IMG/VR virus record: IMGVR_UViG_3300032331_002637
Location: 1-64,000 of that record
Reading direction: 5' to 3' (one strand)
Origin: a virus
Length of the DNA: 64,000 nt
Part shown: positions 10,641-21,764 of the stretch, piece by piece
Position numbering within the stretch: position 1 is the stretch's first letter
Layout of the letters: each line of letters begins with the position of its first letter
The notes under the pieces: model-generated
Database searches by the model: none
What the model saw: only the letters and a program-made list of their open reading frames with translations
Told to the model about the DNA's origin: nothing
Translations under genes and position numbers: made by a program

Positions 10641-11444
10641 ATGATAAAGCCAATAGTACAGGATCTAATATTAAAAGGATGGGGTGTGGATCCTGATACA
10701 TATTTTGGAGAATATAATAAAAGAGTAGCTATAGAAATAGATCCTTTTCGTGATCCACATTGGATAAATGATGAGTCTTTATTTAAAGTAGTAGTTCAAG
10801 TTGAACCTCCGTCTGTAACTAATAAAGCAGTAGAACAGTATCTTGATGAGGAGGGAAATAAATTCGATCTTATTCTTACATATTATTCTTCTATTCTTAA
10901 ATCGAACAAGAAAGCTAAACTTTTTTATTTCGGTGACTCTTGGATAAAGAAGAAAAGCGAATCTATAGATAAAACAAGAAACGTTTCATTTGTAACATCT
11001 AACAAGAATTTTACTCCTGGGCATGCTGTAAGAATGAAGGTAGTTGATTCTCTTCACTTAGGATTAGCTAGATTTGATTTATATGGTAGGGGATTTAATC
11101 CTATAGAAAAAAAAGAAGAGGGACTTAATGACTATAAATTCTCTATAGTAATTGAGAATGAGTTTATGGAAAATTGGTTTACTGAAAAAATAGTCGATTG
11201 CTTTAGAACTAAAACAATCCCGATCTATAAAGGATGTCCTAATATTAAAGATTTCTATAATGAGAAAGGAATAATAAAATTTGATACTATGGAAGAACTT
11301 TACTCGATATTAAATGACATAAATTATAACGGGGATTCAATTTATGATTCGATGAGAGATTCAATGGAAAATAATTATAATAAATCATGGGCAGATCCTA
11401 CATTTAATGAAAGGGTAGAGATAGAGATAAAAAAATATTTATAG
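10641..11444 (+). CDS. GT10 fucosyltransferase-like enzyme
   Basis: The C-terminal half carries the GT10 hallmark: YKFSIVIENEFMENWFTEKI followed by a T-I-P-I-Y-K-G stretch, matching the family pattern F-x-x-x-x-E-N, Y/F-x-T-E-K and V-P-V-x-x-G. The upstream SWIKKKSES...RNVSFVTSNK region fits the earlier GT-B core. GT10 enzymes are alpha-1,3/1,4-fucosyltransferases using GDP-L-fucose. With a GT11-type enzyme, Gmd and an Fcl-like enzyme in the same cluster, the donor pathway is present. The 267-aa length is short for GT10 (usually 300-430), mainly in the N-terminal acceptor domain. Confidence 0.75.
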   Translation: MIKPIVQDLILKGWGVDPDTYFGEYNKRVAIEIDPFRDPHWINDESLFKVVVQVEPPSVTNKAVEQYLDEEGNKFDLILTYYSSILKSNKKAKLFYFGDSWIKKKSESIDKTRNVSFVTSNKNFTPGHAVRMKVVDSLHLGLARFDLYGRGFNPIEKKEEGLNDYKFSIVIENEFMENWFTEKIVDCFRTKTIPIYKGCPNIKDFYNEKGIIKFDTMEELYSILNDINYNGDSIYDSMRDSMENNYNKSWADPTFNERVEIEIKKYL

Positions 11445-11456
11445 TGCGTTAATATC

Positions 11457-11993
11457 ATGAATAAGATTATAATTACAGATTTCGATGGAATTTTTACATC
11501 TCCGGGTTTTATTTACACAAAAGATGGAAAGATAGGTAAATTATTTTCACCTAATGACGGAGGAATTTATCATTTATTATTAGATAATTTAGAATATTTT
11601 GGATTATCGGATGTAATTATATTAACAGGTGAGGATAAATATGAGGGACTTGAAGTCACTGAAAAAAGACTAAGTGATCTTGGTCTTTTAAATAAGCTTA
11701 ATTTTTCCCCTGGTAAAGAAAAATATAATTGGATAAAATCTAGATATAAAATGAATGATGTAATATATTTTGGAGACGACCTTTATGATATAAATATTTT
11801 TAGCGAGTGCTTTTATTCTTGTACTCCTTTGCATTCACCGCTTATATTAAAACGAAATTCTTCTTATTCTTCTGGCTATAAAGGAGGAGAAGATGCTTTC
11901 ACTGACATGATCACACATGTTACAGAAGAAATTCTAAATAAGAGCATCACAGAAATAATAAATAAACAAAAAAAATATGATACTAAATCTTGA
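11457..11993 (+). CDS. KdsC-like HAD phosphatase (Kdo-8-phosphate phosphatase type)
   Basis: HAD motif I is present as ITDFDGIFT (D8 nucleophile, D10 acid/base). A later YFGDDLYDINIF is the Mg-binding motif, and SGYKGGEDAFTDM matches the Gly-rich C-terminal signature of KdsC, which shapes the active site in the tetramer. Length (178 aa) fits KdsC (170-190). KdsC removes phosphate from Kdo-8-phosphate to release Kdo. KdsD- and KdsA-type genes lie further on in the cluster, which supports this role. Related HADs act on ulosonate or heptose phosphates, so the exact substrate is inferred. Its end overlaps the next gene by 17 bases. Confidence 0.78.
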   Translation: MNKIIITDFDGIFTSPGFIYTKDGKIGKLFSPNDGGIYHLLLDNLEYFGLSDVIILTGEDKYEGLEVTEKRLSDLGLLNKLNFSPGKEKYNWIKSRYKMNDVIYFGDDLYDINIFSECFYSCTPLHSPLILKRNSSYSSGYKGGEDAFTDMITHVTEEILNKSITEIINKQKKYDTKS

Positions 11994-12585
11994 AAACATA
12001 GAAAGTAAATTTAATAATTTACTAAAATCTCCGGAATATAAAGAATTTATTAAGCAGATAAAAGAAGCAAAGAACATATACCTTGTTGGCAATGGAGGTC
12101 TTTGGTCAACAGCAAACCATGCTGCAGATGATTGCAATAGATTACTTACTAAAGCAGGAATTAATAAGATGTTTATTTCTATGGACAGTCAATGTCTAAT
12201 TACATCCGTAGCAAATGATTATGGGTACAACAATATATTTGTTAGATGGCTAGAACTTTTGAAAAAAAATAACACTAAATCATCAGAAACTATGGTTATA
12301 GGTTTATCCTGTTCTGGTACATCAAAAAATGTCATATCAGCTTTGCATTGGGGTAAAGAGAATGGATATAAGACATGTTTAATTTCTGGTCAGAAATCTG
12401 CAGTTATACCCGAAGATATGTTAGAGGTTTGTTTTGATACTGAATTTTTTCACACAACAGAAGTTTTATCTCTTATATTATTTTACCAAATAATCATTGA
12501 ATGTGGAGCTTCCTGTCCATCAATAAAAGAAGAAATTATAAGAAAAGGTGCTTCACAGCCATTAACAAGGCCTACAGACGAATAA
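11977..12585 (+). CDS. GmhA-like SIS-domain isomerase (phosphoheptose isomerase type)
   Basis: A SIS (sugar isomerase) domain is shown by IYLVGNGGLWSTANHAADD, which parallels GNGGSAADAQHxAAE in GmhA, and by VIGLSCSGTSKNVISAL, the second phosphate-binding loop. Length (202 aa) fits GmhA (about 190-200). GmhA converts sedoheptulose-7-phosphate to D-glycero-D-manno-heptose-7-phosphate, the first step toward nucleotide-activated heptose. An HldE/TagD-like nucleotidyltransferase lies at 20528, but no heptose kinase (HldA) is visible, so a heptose pathway would need host enzymes. The start overlaps the HAD gene, and the stop TAA shares a base with the next ATG. Confidence 0.78.
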   Translation: MILNLENIESKFNNLLKSPEYKEFIKQIKEAKNIYLVGNGGLWSTANHAADDCNRLLTKAGINKMFISMDSQCLITSVANDYGYNNIFVRWLELLKKNNTKSSETMVIGLSCSGTSKNVISALHWGKENGYKTCLISGQKSAVIPEDMLEVCFDTEFFHTTEVLSLILFYQIIIECGASCPSIKEEIIRKGASQPLTRPTDE

Positions 12586-13421
12586 TGTCATCTAAACAAT
12601 TTTCTGATATAATAGATAAAGAGAAAGGTAAGATTGGGCTAGTAATGGGATTAGGTCCTAGCTTAAAATTTGCTATACCCTATATAAAAAAACTTAAGAA
12701 TAAAAAAATTTCTAAAATATCATGCAACAATATAGATGTAATGTGTGATATTAAAATTAATTACTGGATACTTGCCCAGCCGACTGATTATCAGAATCCT
12801 TTACATATACCACTAGCTAAAGAAAGATATAATAAAATGGGTGCTACATTTCTTTATACTGATTGTCTCGATTTAACACCAAGAGATGAGGTTAAAGAAA
12901 TGTTAAATTCTATAGATTATATAGGATATGATCAAAGGCATATTAATTCCGAAAAATGTGGATGGTTAGATGTTCACGGAAGACCACCTTCCTGTTGTAA
13001 TGGTATTATAGATGGAAGACTTTGTATACAAGAAGAATTTCAAAAATATACTGGAAGTGATTATAAATACGGTGCTGGTGATACTGTTGGTGTTCATATG
13101 GTTGCTTTAGCTGTTATGTTAGGATTAAATCCTATCTACATATCAGGTATAGATTTAGATTATACTAATGGATATTTTAATAATGACTTTGAAGGTGAAG
13201 ATGGAACCAAAAAATTAGGAATGAGAATAGGTGAAAGAATAAAAATGGGAATGGATAGTATAAATAACTCTCCAGACATGGTAGACAGAATAATAATAGA
13301 CCTAACAATAATTAATGAATCTGCTAAAAAAATTGGTATTAAAATATATAATACAAGCAAAGAATCAAGACTCAGCGAGGTCTTTGATTATTTTGATATA
13401 AGTAAACTTTTAATAAAATAA
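12585..13421 (+). CDS. DUF115/GT42-like putative glycosyltransferase (278 aa)
   Basis: I choose the ATG at 12585, which overlaps the preceding stop (TAATG); the frame is open further upstream but only inside the previous gene. GLVMGLGPSLKFAI (about 16-29) and LNPIYISGIDLDYTNGYF correspond to the nucleotide-binding loop and a central motif. These are shared by Campylobacter CstII-type sialyltransferases (GT42: NGPSLK, YLSGIDFY) and by DUF115/Maf proteins that transfer nonulosonic acids to flagellin. Such enzymes use CMP-activated ulosonates; a NeuA-type CMP-sugar synthetase lies at 15929-17047. The family call is by motif only and could also be a distant hydroxymethylpterin pyrophosphokinase relative. 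Confidence 0.55.
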   Translation: MSSKQFSDIIDKEKGKIGLVMGLGPSLKFAIPYIKKLKNKKISKISCNNIDVMCDIKINYWILAQPTDYQNPLHIPLAKERYNKMGATFLYTDCLDLTPRDEVKEMLNSIDYIGYDQRHINSEKCGWLDVHGRPPSCCNGIIDGRLCIQEEFQKYTGSDYKYGAGDTVGVHMVALAVMLGLNPIYISGIDLDYTNGYFNNDFEGEDGTKKLGMRIGERIKMGMDSINNSPDMVDRIIIDLTIINESAKKIGIKIYNTSKESRLSEVFDYFDISKLLIK

Positions 13422-13425
13422 GGGT

Positions 13426-14202
13426 ATGAGTAATTATCCTGAATGGGATTCATCCGCAGTAAATCCTGATATTTATATAGAAAAATATACCGATTACGTA
13501 AAAACTTCTGAGCTCCGAGAAATATTAGACGGAAAAACAGTAGCTATAGTTGGACCTTCATCTCATATATATGGACAAAATCTTGGTAATTATATAGACT
13601 CATTCGATGTTGTAGTGAGAGTGGGATTTTTAGAAGAACCTACAGAAATAGCTATGAAAGACTACGGTAGTAGAACCGATATAATAATACATTCATTTAA
13701 CTCATTTGAAATACCAGTTGCTTCCAGAAATATAGGTTACCTTTCTAAGTGTAAGCACATTATATGTGGAATGGTTTCTAGTGATTTTATAGATGACCAT
13801 AAATCTTTTTTTGATTCTTTAAGAGCAATAGGTATTAAAGTACAAAATGTAGACGATAGCTATTTATACGGATTTTTTAGAAGTGTTGGAACAATATGTA
13901 ATCTAGGAACAGTAGGAATAGAAATTATTCTTAAGTATGAAATTAAATCTCTTTTTGTTACTGGTATAAACTTCTATAACATGGGAAAATACGGTAAGGT
14001 ATACAACGAGGAATATTTCAATGTTGTTTCATCTAAAATGGGAGTTTACAAGAATGAACTTAATGGAATAGTTACTGGTATTTCAGCAAGATCTGATTTG
14101 CATTCGCAGAAACCTCAGATAGAGCATTTTAAATCAGTAGCTAGATCTGATGATAGAGTATTGTTGGATAAATATTTAGAAAATAATTTATTCGTTTCTT
14201 GA
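13426..14202 (+). CDS. GT29-like (sialyltransferase-type) protein (258 aa)
   Basis: Residues 36-68 (KTVAIVGPSSHIYGQNLGNY followed by IDSFDVVVRVGF) match the layout of the sialyl-L motif of GT29 enzymes: a V-G-N/P-S loop, then I-D-S/x-D, then V-x-R. Residues 150-185 (SVGTICNLGTVGIEIILK, then LFVTGINFY) resemble the sialyl-S motif, and EHFKS near 233 could supply the conserved His. GT29 enzymes transfer sialic acid from CMP-sialic acid; bacterial and phage members may use other CMP-ulosonates such as Kdo. It ends in a 15-base tail-to-tail overlap with the minus-strand methyltransferase. The assignment is a motif-level inference. Confidence 0.6.
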   Translation: MSNYPEWDSSAVNPDIYIEKYTDYVKTSELREILDGKTVAIVGPSSHIYGQNLGNYIDSFDVVVRVGFLEEPTEIAMKDYGSRTDIIIHSFNSFEIPVASRNIGYLSKCKHIICGMVSSDFIDDHKSFFDSLRAIGIKVQNVDDSYLYGFFRSVGTICNLGTVGIEIILKYEIKSLFVTGINFYNMGKYGKVYNEEYFNVVSSKMGVYKNELNGIVTGISARSDLHSQKPQIEHFKSVARSDDRVLLDKYLENNLFVS

Positions 14203-14787
14203 TCCTCCCCACCATACTAATTCATAATGAAATTTTGTATTGAATCCTAATTTATTTAGATCCTTTATAATTCTGTACATATATCCTTTTTTAATCCCCT
14301 TGTTTCTGTGGAATTGTATTTGTATATTTTGTACAAGGTCTAGACATTTATTTTCTATAAGATAAGGTACTAGGTCATATTCGTATCCTTCAATATTGAT
14401 CATTAGTACTGCTATTCTTTGATCTTTTATAAAATCTTTTGCGTCTTTGATTAATATTACTTCTTCACCTTCATTTGATATTGATGATCCATCTTCATCT
14501 AGATTTATTTTATTCTCTTTATTCTCTAGTCCTAATGCAAAATTGTGCACCTTAATTTTTTCTGGAAATACCACATACTCTATGAAGCTTTTTATTGGCT
14601 CGAATCCTATTCCATTACATCCATATTTATTGTACATATCAATAAGCCATTGACCTTTGTATGCACCAATATCTACTATTAGATCATCTGGACCTAAATT
14701 GTAATTCCTTAAATGATTCTGATCTCCCGAATCTCCGAACCATCTCTCAATGGTGCTTCTAAATTCGTTATCCTGTTTTGTACTCAT
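14188..14787 (-). CDS. FkbM-family methyltransferase
   Basis: LIVDIGAYKGQWLIDMYNKY is SAM-binding motif I of an FkbM-type class I methyltransferase. IGFEPIKSF carries the acidic residue that contacts the SAM ribose, and VLMINIEGYEYDLVPYL is the characteristic D/N-x-E-G-x-E segment of the family. Length (199 aa) is usual for the domain. FkbM enzymes O-methylate sugars and polyketides, so methylation of a glycan hydroxyl is likely here. It is the last gene of a three-gene minus-strand island and overlaps the aminotransferase gene upstream by four bases. Confidence 0.8.
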   Translation of the reverse strand: MSTKQDNEFRSTIERWFGDSGDQNHLRNYNLGPDDLIVDIGAYKGQWLIDMYNKYGCNGIGFEPIKSFIEYVVFPEKIKVHNFALGLENKENKINLDEDGSSISNEGEEVILIKDAKDFIKDQRIAVLMINIEGYEYDLVPYLIENKCLDLVQNIQIQFHRNKGIKKGYMYRIIKDLNKLGFNTKFHYELVWWGGSRNE

Positions 14788-15932
14788 AGAATAGATTTTT
14801 TTATAATTTCTAAAGCTTCTTTAACCTCTTCGTCTTTTACTGCTAAATTTGGCCTAATTCTAATTGATGTATCGCCTGCAGAATTAACAAGTAATCCATT
14901 GTTTTTAGATCTAATGATAAAAGAATTTCTTTGTTCTTGATTTTTAAAATCGAAAGCTACCAACAGCCCACAAGATCTAACATTCATTAGACCAATTTCT
15001 TCTAGTCCTGTGTGTAATTTATATCCTTGTTTTATAGCATTACCTTTAAGATCTTTTTCTTTAATTGCTTTAATTATGTATGTGGACCTAATCATATCAA
15101 TAATATCACCATCCCATGTTACACAATATCTTGAAGGGTCTATAACTTTATCTGATATCTTTTGTATAGCCATTGCGCCAGATACCTGTGATTTTTTACC
15201 AAATATTAAAATATCTGGTTTATATCCATTATTTTCAAAGTACCACGTTTTACCCGAAGTACAAAATCCTGTTTGTATCTCATCATAAATAAGAGGTATA
15301 TCATATTTGTCTGCTATTTCTCTTAGTCCTTTAAAAAAACTCAAAGAATAATAAATGTCACCGTTTGTACATTGTATAGGCTCGAATAATATAGCAGATA
15401 TAGAAGGGTCTTTTTTAATTGAGTATTCTAAATCAACAAGGTCATTAAACTTTGGCCATACATTATCTCCTGGAAATCCGTTAAGTCTTTCGTAAACTCC
15501 TCCTTCTCTACCAGTTACTATATTTCCGTACGATGTTATTCCGTGAAAGCTTTTATTGTGGGATATTACCTTTGGGTTTTTTTTATCTGAATATTCAAAT
15601 GCCATCTTTACCGCATGTTCAACTGCAAGTGATCCAGTGCAAGTAAAATGCGGATTTTTAAAAATACTAAATGAAGAAAATTCCATAAAATCTTTTTCAA
15701 AAATTTCCCTTTCATCCGATGTATGCTCACAATTTGTTACTCTAATACCTGCCCATTTATTTACTGATTCTAAAAATTCTGGCCTCTTAAATACTTCATG
15801 ATTATATCCTAAAGCAAGTGAAGAATACATTGACATAAAATCTAAATAATTCTTTCCATCTAACTGATTATGTAAATAGCTATCCTGTGATTTTTTAGGA
15901 TCTATTTTTAAGTTGTATATGCTGTTTATCAT
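14784..15932 (-). CDS. Class III PLP-dependent aminotransferase
   Basis: The fold-type I class III signatures are present: TCTGSLAVEHAVKMA (about 97-111), NKSFHG (126-131), then LIYDEIQTGFCTSGKTW with D217 and Q220, and PDILIFGKK (K246 as the expected PLP lysine, family PDIL/V-x-x-GK). Length (382 aa) is slightly short for the class (about 400-450). Members transfer amino groups from the omega position of amino acids such as lysine, ornithine or GABA, and some act on sugars or glutamate semialdehyde. In this context it may make an amino-sugar or an amino-acid substituent of the glycan; that is inferred. It overlaps both neighbours by four bases (ATGA). Confidence 0.8.
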   Translation of the reverse strand: MINSIYNLKIDPKKSQDSYLHNQLDGKNYLDFMSMYSSLALGYNHEVFKRPEFLESVNKWAGIRVTNCEHTSDEREIFEKDFMEFSSFSIFKNPHFTCTGSLAVEHAVKMAFEYSDKKNPKVISHNKSFHGITSYGNIVTGREGGVYERLNGFPGDNVWPKFNDLVDLEYSIKKDPSISAILFEPIQCTNGDIYYSLSFFKGLREIADKYDIPLIYDEIQTGFCTSGKTWYFENNGYKPDILIFGKKSQVSGAMAIQKISDKVIDPSRYCVTWDGDIIDMIRSTYIIKAIKEKDLKGNAIKQGYKLHTGLEEIGLMNVRSCGLLVAFDFKNQEQRNSFIIRSKNNGLLVNSAGDTSIRIRPNLAVKDEEVKEALEIIKKSIL

Positions 15933-17047
15933 ATTTTTGTAATATCACCCGTGTATATGTGATCAACATCTTCTCTAGAAACTGCTAATCTGATAGCTGG
16001 CACATTCCCTGTAGCCTCTATTCTATGAATTCTATTTTTTTCTATAAAAACTATATCGCCTTCTTTAACATGTTTATTTACCCCCTCTATTTCAAATATC
16101 CATTCGCCTTTAATAATTAGCCACCATTCGTTCCAATCTGCATGATAATGTCTTCTATTACCTTCTCCTGGATTTTGACATATTAGACAAGCGCTGTTGC
16201 TTTCAGTATTTACTAATCTTTTACTCCATGATTTTTGGTCCATTGAATTTATAACATCATATATGTTTAAAATCTCTTTATTCGAATCATTTAAATCGTT
16301 ATATTCTACACCATCTTTAGCCAATATACTAGGAACGTCATTTTCTTTATGAAAATCTATAGAATCTTTTTCTTTCCTTTGTATATGTTCTGCTATTATT
16401 TCTGCAATATTAAAATCTTCTTCGTTGTCAATGTCGACTGTTGAAAATCCTTTTAATTCAAAAGTGTCCTTTGGATAATCTCCCCCGTGATATGCAGCTC
16501 CATACATTTTCATGTTTTTCTTGTATTCTTCTGTGGTCCATGCCATTAATGAACATGCATAAGCTTTTATGGGTTCTAAATCTTGTGAAGGTGGTGTTAT
16601 CTTAGTGGGATCAAAGTTAATAGGATTATCTTTATAAATAGATTCTATTTGTACATTTTTAACTGATATTAATGTATTAACATCTCCTTTTTTAATTCTT
16701 TCGACAAATGCTATTATTTCTTCCGGGGTAATAAAAGGTGAAGTTGGTAATATTTGAACTAAAATATCACAATCTACTTTATAAATAAACTCTTGAGCAA
16801 AATGATCATTTGTAGCATCATCGCTTGAGAGATGCTCTGGCCTTTTATGAAATTTTATACCGCTTTTTTCTGCAATTTCTTTGAATATATCAGACTCTGA
16901 ATTTATGTATATTTCATCAAAAACACCGGATGCTTTAACTGCATCAATTGGATATTGAATTAGTTTTTTGCCTAATATCTTTCTAAGATTTTTTTTAGGA
17001 ACTCTTTTGCTACCCATTCTTGCGGGAATCATTGCTACTATTTTCAT
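15929..17047 (-). CDS. NeuA-type CMP-ulosonate synthetase fused to a C-terminal cupin
   Basis: Residues 1-225 match NeuA-type cytidylyltransferases: MIPARMGSKRVPKKN (6-20, CTP-binding loop), RP at 69-70, and STVDIDNEEDFNIAE (202-216) with metal-binding Asp residues. The IPAR-x-GSK-x-x-x-KN form is nearer NeuA/PseF/LegF than KdsB. Residues about 265-372 form a cupin with H300-x-H302, E307 and H341 as a likely metal site. The first domain activates an ulosonic acid (sialic-acid-like or Kdo) with CTP; the cupin may isomerise, sense or modify the sugar. Fusion of these two is unusual. It heads the minus-strand island, with its promoter presumably in 17048-17098. Confidence 0.78.
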   Translation of the reverse strand: MKIVAMIPARMGSKRVPKKNLRKILGKKLIQYPIDAVKASGVFDEIYINSESDIFKEIAEKSGIKFHKRPEHLSSDDATNDHFAQEFIYKVDCDILVQILPTSPFITPEEIIAFVERIKKGDVNTLISVKNVQIESIYKDNPINFDPTKITPPSQDLEPIKAYACSLMAWTTEEYKKNMKMYGAAYHGGDYPKDTFELKGFSTVDIDNEEDFNIAEIIAEHIQRKEKDSIDFHKENDVPSILAKDGVEYNDLNDSNKEILNIYDVINSMDQKSWSKRLVNTESNSACLICQNPGEGNRRHYHADWNEWWLIIKGEWIFEIEGVNKHVKEGDIVFIEKNRIHRIEATGNVPAIRLAVSREDVDHIYTGDITKI

Positions 17048-18918: not shown

Positions 18919-19922
18919 AAAAAGCTATAATAACAGGAGTTAACGGGCAAGACGGAAGTTATCTTGCTGAACTCCTTCTCGATAAAGGATATGAAGTACA
19001 CGGTACTATTAGAAGATCCTCATCTTTTAATACATGGAGAATAGATCATATTAGATCTCATGAAAATTTTCATTGGCACTATGCTGATGTTACAGATCCT
19101 GTATCTATTAGTAACCTTATATCTAGAATAAAGCCAGAAGAATTTTATAATTTAGCTGCTCAAAGCCATGTTAAAATTTCTTTTGAAATTCCTTACTATA
19201 CAGGACAAGTTGATGCTATAGGAACACTTAATGTACTTGAAGCAATAAGAACGCATTCGCCAATTACTAAGCTTTATCAAGCATCAACATCAGAACTTTA
19301 TGGAAAAGTTCAAGAAATACCACAGAATGAAAATACACCTTTTTATCCAAGAAGCCCTTATGGAGTTGCTAAGCTTTATGGATTTTGGATAATAAAAAAC
19401 TACAGAGAAGCATACGACATATTTGCATGCAACGGAATTCTTTTTAATCACACATCGCCAAGAAGAGGAGAAAACTTTATGGAGAAAAAGATTGTAGATT
19501 CTCTTGTAGCTATTCACAAAGGGGGTAAAGAAATTCTTAAGCTTGGGAATCTTGATGCTAAAAGGGATATTGGTCATGCTAAAGAATATGTTGAAGGCAT
19601 GTGGAGAATGCTTCAACAAGAAACCCCCGAAGATTTTGTTCTTGCTACTGGTATGTGTTTTTCTGTAAGAGAAATAGTTGAAACCGTTTATCAAATTTTA
19701 GGTAATAAAATAAGATGGGAAGGGGAAGGACTAGAAGAAAAAGGTTTAGATGTGGAAACTGGAAAAATCGTAGTTTCTATAGACCCTAAATATTTTAGAC
19801 CTTCGGAGGTTGATCTACTAATTGGTAATCCTAAAAAAGCTAAAGATATTCTTGGGTGGGAAAGTAATAGCACAATTGGGGGAATTTTAGAAGAGATGGT
19901 TAACGAGCAAATCAAAAAATAA
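18915..19922 (+). CDS. gmd: GDP-mannose 4,6-dehydratase
   Basis: This is a textbook Gmd: [16 protein letters not shown] (NADP-binding loop), [27 protein letters not shown] (T125/S126/E127), [12 protein letters not shown] (Y149/K153) and [11 protein letters not shown]. Length (335 aa) is close to other short Gmd proteins. It converts GDP-D-mannose to GDP-4-keto-6-deoxy-D-mannose, the shared precursor of GDP-L-fucose, GDP-colitose and GDP-perosamine. It overlaps the ColD-like gene by four bases and shares one base of its stop with the KdsD-like start. It feeds both the Fcl/ColC-like enzyme at 6568 and ColD. Confidence 0.95.
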
Positions 19923-20509
19923 TGGACTATAAAGGTTTAATTGAAAAAGAAATAGAGTATTTAAGAAAGATACCAACCGAAAGAATTGGCGATATAGTAA
20001 GAATAATAAATTCAAATCTAAAAAGCGGAAGAATAATAACTTCCGGTATGGGAAAGGCAGGACAAGTTGCTAATACCTTTGCAACTACACTCTGCTCTAC
20101 AGGAACCCCTTCTTTTTTTCTACATCCTGCAGAAGCTCAACATGGAGATCTTGGTATGATAATGCCAGGAGATATAATTATAGTTTTTAGTAACTCAGGA
20201 AAAACTAGAGAAGTTATAGAGCTTATAGAACTTGTACATTCTTTAGAATATAATAATATTATATTTGGTGTTATAGGAAAAAGAAATGCTCAATTAGATC
20301 TAATATTTGCAGATTATATTGAATTTGGTGAGGTGGAAGAAATATGTCCTCTTGGATTAACACCAACCACTTCAACAACTTGTATGTCAGTTATTTGTGA
20401 TCTTATGGTAGTTGGAATAATGGCTAATAAAGAATTTACCAAAGAAGAATACGCAAAATTCCATCATGGCGGATATTTGAATTTAAAGGCTAAAGGAATT
20501 TCTAATTAA
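19922..20509 (+). CDS. kdsD: D-arabinose-5-phosphate isomerase, SIS domain only (KdsD/KpsF type)
   Basis: The SIS domain carries TSGMGKAGQVANTFATTLCS, PSFFLHPAEAQHGDLGMI and VFSNSGKTREVIEL, all diagnostic of KdsD/KpsF/GutQ. ICPLGLTPTTSTT and KFHHGGYLN near the end are also family-specific. Length is 195 aa, lacking the two C-terminal CBS domains of the E. coli enzyme (328 aa); SIS-only A5P isomerases are known from Bacteroides. The enzyme interconverts ribulose-5-phosphate and arabinose-5-phosphate, the first committed step to Kdo. KdsA- and KdsC-like genes are in the same cluster. Confidence 0.88.
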   Translation: MDYKGLIEKEIEYLRKIPTERIGDIVRIINSNLKSGRIITSGMGKAGQVANTFATTLCSTGTPSFFLHPAEAQHGDLGMIMPGDIIIVFSNSGKTREVIELIELVHSLEYNNIIFGVIGKRNAQLDLIFADYIEFGEVEEICPLGLTPTTSTTCMSVICDLMVVGIMANKEFTKEEYAKFHHGGYLNLKAKGISN

Positions 20510-20527
20510 GATAATTTAATAATAGAA

Positions 20528-20986
20528 ATGAATAAAACGATAGGAATTACTTGCTCTACTTTTGATCTTTTACATACTGGACATATAATTATGCTAGAGG
20601 AGTGTAAAAAATACTGCGATTATTTAATATGCGCAATACAAGTTGATCCCTCATTAGATAGAATTGGAAAAAATAAACCAGTGCAGTCTTTAATTGAAAG
20701 GTACATACAATTAGATGCTGTTAAGTATGTTGATAAGATTATACCATACACTAATGAGAAAGAGCTTGAATTAATATTTATGTCATTAGATTTAGACGTT
20801 AGAATTATAGGTGAAGAATATAAGGATATAGATTTTACAGGTAAGAATATTTGTATAAAAAGAAATATTAAATTAATATACAATAAAAGGGAGCATAATT
20901 TTTCTACAACTAATTTAAGAAAATCAATATACTTAAATGAATTAAATAAAGAATTAGAAAAAAATAATAAGCCGGATGGAAATTAA
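20528..20986 (+). CDS. Cytidylyltransferase-like nucleotidyltransferase (TagD/HldE-C type)
   Basis: GITCSTFDLLHTGHIIMLEE contains the T-x-G-H (HxGH-type) nucleotide-binding motif of small nucleotidyltransferases such as glycerol-3-phosphate cytidylyltransferase (TagD) and the C-terminal domain of HldE. ICAIQVDPS and a C-terminal STTNLRKS (the family I-S-T-T-x-I/L region) agree with this. Length (152 aa) fits. Family members activate polyol or heptose phosphates with CTP or ATP. Together with the GmhA-like gene at 11977 it could serve a heptose branch, but a glycerol- or other polyol-phosphate donor is equally possible. It overlaps the KdsA gene by 11 bases. Confidence 0.78.
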   Translation: MNKTIGITCSTFDLLHTGHIIMLEECKKYCDYLICAIQVDPSLDRIGKNKPVQSLIERYIQLDAVKYVDKIIPYTNEKELELIFMSLDLDVRIIGEEYKDIDFTGKNICIKRNIKLIYNKREHNFSTTNLRKSIYLNELNKELEKNNKPDGN

Positions 20987-21764
20987 ATATAATAAGATTC
21001 TTATAGCAGGTCCTTGCGTAATTCAAAGTTGGGACACTTGTTATGAGATAGCTATTGAAATTAAAAGATGTGCACTTCTGTATAATTTTACACCTATCTT
21101 CAAAGCAAGTTTTGATAAAGCTAATAGAACTTCGTCTAATGGATTTAGAGGCGTTGGTATAGATAAAGGATTAGATATACTATCTAAGATCAAACAGAGG
21201 CTAGATATACCTGTTATAACGGATGTACACGAAACTGAACAAGTTGAGCAAGTAGCATCAGTTGTGGATTACTTACAAGTTCCTGCTTTTTTGTCTAGAC
21301 AGACAGATCTTATTGAAGCATGTGCTAAAACAGGATTACCTGTGTTAGTTAAAAAAGGACAATTTCTTTCTCCTGAAAGTTGTAAATTCATTGAGGATAA
21401 ATTTTACAAAGCTGGGGGTACACAATTACTAATAGGTGAAAGGGGTAACAGCTTTGGGTATAATGATTTGATAGTTGATGTCACATCAATTTCTAGATTA
21501 AAAAAATCCTGCGAAAATTCAAAGATTATAATGGATTGCACACACAGTCTGCAAAGACCCAATGGAATTTACGGAAAGACAGAAGGGAGAGGTGATATGA
21601 TCGAAGAGATGGTAAAATATGCTTCAGTAATGAATGCTGATGGAATATTTATAGAAACACATCCATACCCAGAACTCTCCCCGTCGGATTCTGAAAATAT
21701 GTTAGAACTTAGTAAATTTGAAAATATAATAAAAAAATCAAGATCGATATATGATACCCACTAA
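20976..21764 (+). CDS. kdsA: 3-deoxy-D-manno-octulosonate-8-phosphate synthase
   Basis: KdsA motifs run in order: ILIAGPCVIQS, FKASFDKANRTSSNGFRGVG, VITDVHETEQVEQVASVVD, LQVPAFLSRQTDLIEA, VKKGQFLSPE, GERGNSFGYNDLIVDV, MDCTHSLQRPNG and GIFIETHPYP. Length (262 aa) is normal for KdsA (about 270-285). It condenses arabinose-5-phosphate with phosphoenolpyruvate to Kdo-8-phosphate. CTHS has Cys before the THS triad, where many KdsA have DATHS; this hints at, but does not prove, which metal class it belongs to. It sits after KdsD and the nucleotidyltransferase, and its end overlaps the next GT2 gene by 14 bases. Confidence 0.93.
   Translation: MEIKYNKILIAGPCVIQSWDTCYEIAIEIKRCALLYNFTPIFKASFDKANRTSSNGFRGVGIDKGLDILSKIKQRLDIPVITDVHETEQVEQVASVVDYLQVPAFLSRQTDLIEACAKTGLPVLVKKGQFLSPESCKFIEDKFYKAGGTQLLIGERGNSFGYNDLIVDVTSISRLKKSCENSKIIMDCTHSLQRPNGIYGKTEGRGDMIEEMVKYASVMNADGIFIETHPYPELSPSDSENMLELSKFENIIKKSRSIYDTH

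Follow-up and report, generated by a model that had tools for sequence, protein, structure and literature searches.

Two neighbouring genes of a tailed phage encode proteins that recall the sialyltransferase families GT42 and GT29, and the locus raises the question of what these proteins are, which sugars they would transfer and whether they belong together. GT29 is best known for animal sialosides. The genes lie in a stretch of 64,000 nucleotides (the window; positions 1 to 64,000 of IMG/VR virus record IMGVR_UViG_3300032331_002637, 119,756 bp) of a contig with baseplate wedge, hub and tail-sheath-like genes. Both are on the plus strand: the first (12585..13421) encodes a putative GT42/MptE-like CMP-sugar transferase of the Maf/CstII superfamily (278 aa), and the second (13426..14202) a divergent putative CMP-sugar transferase of the GT29 family (258 aa). 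A preliminary description had placed both genes correctly, and the motifs it quoted are present, GLGPSLK and YISGIDLDY in the first and GPSSHIYG, IDSFDVVVR and TGINFY in the second. The ATG start of the first gene overlaps the stop of the preceding SIS isomerase gene (the mechanical open reading frame spans 12501-13421). Because dN/dS against a sister phage (G001) is well under 1, at 0.20-0.26 for the GT29 gene and 0.14 for the GT42-like gene, both are selected coding genes.

Judged from its sequence, the second protein is a GT29 by descent in which two of the four signature motifs are consistently altered. It scores 23.2 bits against Pfam Glyco_transf_29 (PF00777; cut-off 23, E 5e-5), its sister-phage counterpart scores 24.9 bits, and proteins of ten further phages that carry the same gene module exceed the cut-off. 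A profile (A5) built from eleven phage proteins of this clade, found via their genomic partner, a cytidylyltransferase-cupin protein, matched eight PDB sequences with E <0.03 (6.8e-7 to 0.026), all of them solved GT29 sialyltransferases; ST3Gal1 was the best match (6.8e-7), and ST6Gal1, ST8SiaIII and ST6GalNAc2 were also found. Comparison of the window clade with canonical phage GT29s by hhalign gave a probability of 98.5% over a span that includes motifs L and S, and a joint pattern running from motif L to motif VS, taken from the family alignment, was matched by none of 200,000 shuffles of the protein. Together with the motifs, these results bear out the earlier GT29-like assignment. AlphaFold models computed from single sequences, i.e. 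without an alignment, were unusable for both proteins (pLDDT 32 for the GT29-like and 38 for the GT42-like protein).

Sialylmotif L, which is associated with donor binding, is present at G54-R65 plus D79-D85 (GNYIDSFDVVVR...DYGSRTD, aligned to ST3Gal1 and ST6Gal1), as is sialylmotif S at G161-F183 (CNLGTVGI...SLFVTGINFY, aligned to motif S of phage GT29s). Residues invariant in the clade are G54, I57, S59, D61, R65, D79, G81, T84, D85, G161, G180, D224, H226 and Q231. Motif III has the consensus (H/y)-Y-(Y/W/F/h)-(D/E/q/g) (PMC8433944), from which the clade departs with [VIL]-Y-x-[DENP]: the Tyr and the acid are kept in the VYNE of the window protein (192-195), and the His is replaced by V, I or L in 11/11 members. 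In the VS-like motif (H226-x4-Q231) the His is invariant and H-x4-Q replaces H-x4-E, again in all eleven. With no His in motif III and Q for E in motif VS, the activity may therefore differ from that of known GT29s. The motif L Cys, one of the cysteines that form the L-S disulfide of animal enzymes, is absent from the clade alignment; bacterial GT29s likewise lack these cysteines (PMC5811610).

The preliminary description had called GT29 and GT42 unrelated, and a GT29 in a phage unusual since the family is mainly eukaryotic. Neither point agrees with the literature, in which 23 bacterial GT29s and a kinship of GT29 with GT42 were published in 2018 (PMC5811610) and reviews treat the two families as related GT-A variants (PMC5811610, PMC8433944). 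For the proteins studied here this kinship rests on the literature, because comparison of the GT29 and GT42 profiles gave a probability of 1.7%; pairwise BLASTP likewise found no similarity between the two window proteins. Literature searches found no paper on phage GT29s, and searches on phage sialyltransferases gave nothing on point. A scan of genome collections with the GT29 protein yielded no relatives, and searches of plasmids and GenBank phages yielded nothing except LR756508.1 and Stenotrophomonas phage DLP_6. The former, an unannotated GenBank phage of 484 kb, has five GT29 genes (up to 112 bits), four of which cluster around NeuB (L009 5249-10070; about 309-327 kb of the record); one GT29 gene lies ~0.9 kb from a CTP_transf_3 match. 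The latter, a cultured phage, encodes a "hypothetical protein" (AAY80_202; L010 3965-4756) that Pfam assigns to GT29 (31.8 bits) and whose gene is located in a small glycosyltransferase cluster.

The first protein can be placed, on sequence grounds, in the GT42/Maf superfamily, and membership of GT42 proper is not claimed. The Pfam family MptE-like (PF01973) is matched above threshold (37.1 bits, cut-off 34.6), while CST-I (GT42, PF06002) stays under its cut-off of 25 (22.1 bits, E 1.2e-4). A ten-sequence profile (A6) matched the LOS sialyltransferase 9c08, Maf 5mu5 and CstII entries in the PDB weakly (E 0.006-0.02), and the best nine matches all belong to the GT42/Maf superfamily. The catalytic base of GT42, which we take to be His188 in the C-terminal part of CstII, finds no counterpart, as neither the window protein nor its 83%-identical sister has a His after GIDLDY, the window protein having none beyond residue 190. 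Thus the earlier GT42/Maf-like claim stands at the level of the superfamily, and it does not extend to the GT42 Pfam threshold or the catalytic His. Four NeuB-linked relatives (L016, L021, L022, L024) show a conserved GHW in the same C-terminal region. The gene lies in a phage glycan locus and not in the flagellin glycosylation context of Maf.

Lacking the C-terminal His, the first protein may have no activity or rely on a different base. It could thus be an inactive or repurposed MptE/DUF115-fold protein that is no transferase at all, which would suit both the missing His in window and sister and the higher score of MptE-like over CST-I. We consider this rather unlikely in view of the dN/dS of 0.14, the profile matches to CstII, LOS sialyltransferase and Maf, and the NeuB and cytidylyltransferase genes that adjoin its relatives.

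Those relatives also show that the two window genes are a meeting of two independent units and not an obligate pair. GT42-like genes were found in seven further distinct phages, six of which have NeuB adjacent or one gene away plus a PseF-like cytidylyltransferase, so that GT42-like and GT29 relatives keep different neighbours; the GT42 profile had no match in the eleven contigs that carry the cytidylyltransferase-cupin gene. In both sister phages (G001 and G002) two genes, a second GT42-like gene (30% identical to the first by BLASTP) and one other, are inserted between the first GT42-like gene and the GT29 gene. The suggestion that the pair might add alternating acidic sugars thus receives no support. 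In L016, L021, L022 and L024 the genes run DegT, GMD-like, GT42-like, NeuB, PseF-like and class III aminotransferase, and in one cytidylyltransferase-cupin contig (L040) that gene adjoins one for a different MptE-like protein.

What the GT29 gene does accompany is a module centred on a CMP-ulosonate-synthetase-type cytidylyltransferase with a fused C-terminal cupin (CMPT-cupin; 15929..17047, minus strand; CTP_transf_3 3.5e-27, Cupin_2 2.8e-12; PseF 99 bits, under the PseF cut-off). A synthetase of this type had been noted nearby from the outset, and its link to GT29 proved stronger than the sequence of the window could reveal. Apart from the two sisters, an IMG/VR scan with this protein yielded 11 contigs. 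In ten of them a GT29 gene immediately precedes the CMPT-cupin gene on its strand, which amounts to 9/10 distinct phages once the near-identical L044 and L047 are counted as one. A class III aminotransferase and a GmhA-like SIS isomerase occur in all eleven contigs. In the window these are at 14784..15932 (minus strand; Aminotran_3 8.7e-62) and 11977..12585 (plus strand; TIGR00441 gmhA 64 bits, under cut-off), and the block is rearranged, with aminotransferase and cytidylyltransferase on the strand opposite to GT29. Between lies a gene for an FkbM-type methyltransferase (14188..14787, minus strand; Methyltransf_21 1.2e-5) found only in the window and the sister phages. Since sampling began from the cytidylyltransferase, the scan shows that this gene goes with GT29 but does not show the converse; in LR756508.1 and DLP_6, GT29 genes occur where the module is missing.

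An AroB-related cyclase (TIGR04425, a putative cyclizing sugar phosphate phospholyase) is found in 8/11 contigs and both sisters, as a gene of ~350 aa with five of ten matches above cut-off, and an SDR adjoins it wherever this was checked (L003, L037, L040, L041; e.g. L003 3714-5469 and L037 7125-8898). A literature search on TIGR04425 gave nothing on point. While this model matches a module gene of most relatives, it has no match in the window, where a plus-strand HAD phosphatase gene (KDN-9-P phosphatase/KdsC-like, 11457..11993; NF058599 1.6e-14, TIGR01670 1.6e-8) stands in the place of the sisters' SDR and AroB-like cyclase. L044 and L045 have a short ORF of 126-133 aa in which a DFDG motif can be recognized by eye (PHROG 1238, a family named phosphoheptose isomerase). 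As these ORFs and the window HAD show no similarity to each other, it is a suggestion only that an HAD strictly replaces the SDR and the AroB-like cyclase. Upstream, a GT10 fucosyltransferase (10641-11444) also matches an alpha-2,8-polysialyltransferase family (25.6 bits, cut-off 23.3). A cytidylyltransferase-domain relative (39% identity) beside SIS and inositol-monophosphatase-family genes on a Leisingera plasmid (NZ_CP081063.1) is possibly a cellular analogue of the module.

Neither NeuB nor KdsA was found in the eleven CMPT-cupin contigs; most are fragments, so this absence is weak for each contig alone. It bears first on whether both proteins could be true sialyltransferases that take CMP-sialic acid or another CMP-nonulosonic acid from the host. 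Their closest solved relatives are CMP-Neu5Ac enzymes, NeuB adjoins the GT42-like relatives, and the huge phage LR756508.1 has GT29 beside NeuB. We nevertheless regard this as distinctly improbable, as NeuB is missing from the window and from every CMPT-cupin contig, and the GT29 clade tracks another cytidylyltransferase module.

Alternatively, both transferases could share one donor, CMP-Kdo, and attach Kdo to the LPS or capsule of the host. For each of the four steps the window holds a candidate: a KdsD-like arabinose-5-phosphate isomerase with the SIS domain only (19922..20509, plus strand; kpsF family 145 bits, under cut-off), a KdsA-like 3-deoxy-8-phosphooctulonate synthase (20976..21764, plus strand; NF003543 309 bits, cut-off 242), the HAD, which resembles KdsC/KDN-9-P phosphatase, and the CMPT-cupin protein. 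GT42 relatives accompany CMP-ulosonate genes, and the plant GT29 RCKT1 is likely a CMP-Kdo transferase acting on RG-II, an activity inferred from mutants (PMC12168206). The distribution of KdsA points the other way: all eleven other CMPT-cupin contigs lack it and ten of them keep GT29, which is thus not tied to Kdo synthesis. Nor would the aminotransferase, the isomerase and, where present, the AroB-like cyclase have a role in a plain Kdo pathway. A single shared donor is thus possible and, in our judgement, unlikely.

KdsA is 100% identical in two sisters and absent from all other records searched, and a scan of genome collections with the protein yielded no relatives. It forms a cassette (19922-21764) with the KdsD-like gene and a gene for an HldE C-terminal-like nucleotidyltransferase (20528..20986, plus strand; TIGR02199 69 bits, under cut-off); other genes of the locus differ by up to 17% in the sister phages, a contrast with KdsA that points to either a recent exchange or strong constraint. 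In G001, KdsA occurs alongside the AroB-like module, which precludes assigning the donors there by exclusion.

We therefore lean towards a reading in which both proteins are CMP-sugar transferases of a phage glycan locus, the GT29 protein using the module's own non-sialic CMP-sugar and the GT42-like protein a CMP-ulosonate. From homology, motif conservation, gene linkage and purifying selection we infer the enzyme activities, step order, donors, acceptor and effect on the host as follows. The module would act in the order GmhA-like isomerase, HAD phosphatase or SDR plus AroB-like cyclase, class III aminotransferase and cytidylyltransferase-cupin, and the CMP-sugar so formed would be the donor of the GT29 protein, in which H226 may serve as the base of an inverting displacement. 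NeuB is missing from the module in every case and KdsA in nearly every case, so this donor is probably not sialic acid; a self-sufficient module of this kind cannot have sialic acid as its product. The GT42-like protein would most likely transfer a CMP-ulosonate, with Kdo or a similar ulosonate as the likeliest candidate, since the window holds KdsD-, KdsA-, phosphatase- and cytidylyltransferase-like genes together. During infection the host would come to have an altered surface polysaccharide; marine viruses are known to carry genes for surface polysaccharides, kdsA and neuA among them (PMC5332604, PMC10653327).

An amino sugar or aminocyclitol would suit an AroB-like cyclase followed by an aminotransferase. 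Perhaps, then, the phage GT29 subfamily, with no motif III His and with H-x4-Q, transfers a CMP-activated amino sugar or aminocyclitol that is neither sialic acid nor Kdo, a proposal that we make tentatively and believe more likely wrong than right. Its donor would be made from a sugar phosphate via the GmhA-like isomerase, AroB-like cyclase, class III aminotransferase and cytidylyltransferase-cupin, and would, if confirmed, add a class of donor new to GT29. That a conserved clade of phage GT29s has altered catalytic motifs and keeps to a module without sialic acid synthase suggests that the donor range of GT29 is wider than assumed; the locus offers a compact gene set for testing this range, and would widen the set of sugars by which phages can alter host surfaces.

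Compared with known systems, the GT42-like protein shares the GxGPSL N-terminal loop and the GxDxDY block with GT42 CstI/CstII and Maf/PseE (DUF115), in line with its matches to 9c08, 5mu5 and CstII, but differs in the missing C-terminal His, the CST-I score and the absence of the extra domains of Maf (278 vs 600+ aa). The GT29 protein shares the motif L block, the motif S glycines and the motif VS His with ST3Gal1 (2wnb), ST6Gal1 (4js1) and ST8SiaIII (5bo6), whereas its clade differs from animal GT29s in motif III, in H-x4-Q, in a locus without NeuB, and in having Ala at the motif L Cys position, which precludes an L-S disulfide. With the GT29s of LR756508.1 and DLP_6 it has in common the Pfam family, a phage genome, a setting amid sugar genes and the 98.5% hhalign match, at 19-25% identity; the copies in LR756508.1 keep motif III H-Y-[WY] and mostly H-x4-E, in a phage that has NeuB. 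RCKT1, likened here by its published description, offers a precedent within GT29 for a CMP-ulosonate donor that is not sialic (PMC12168206).
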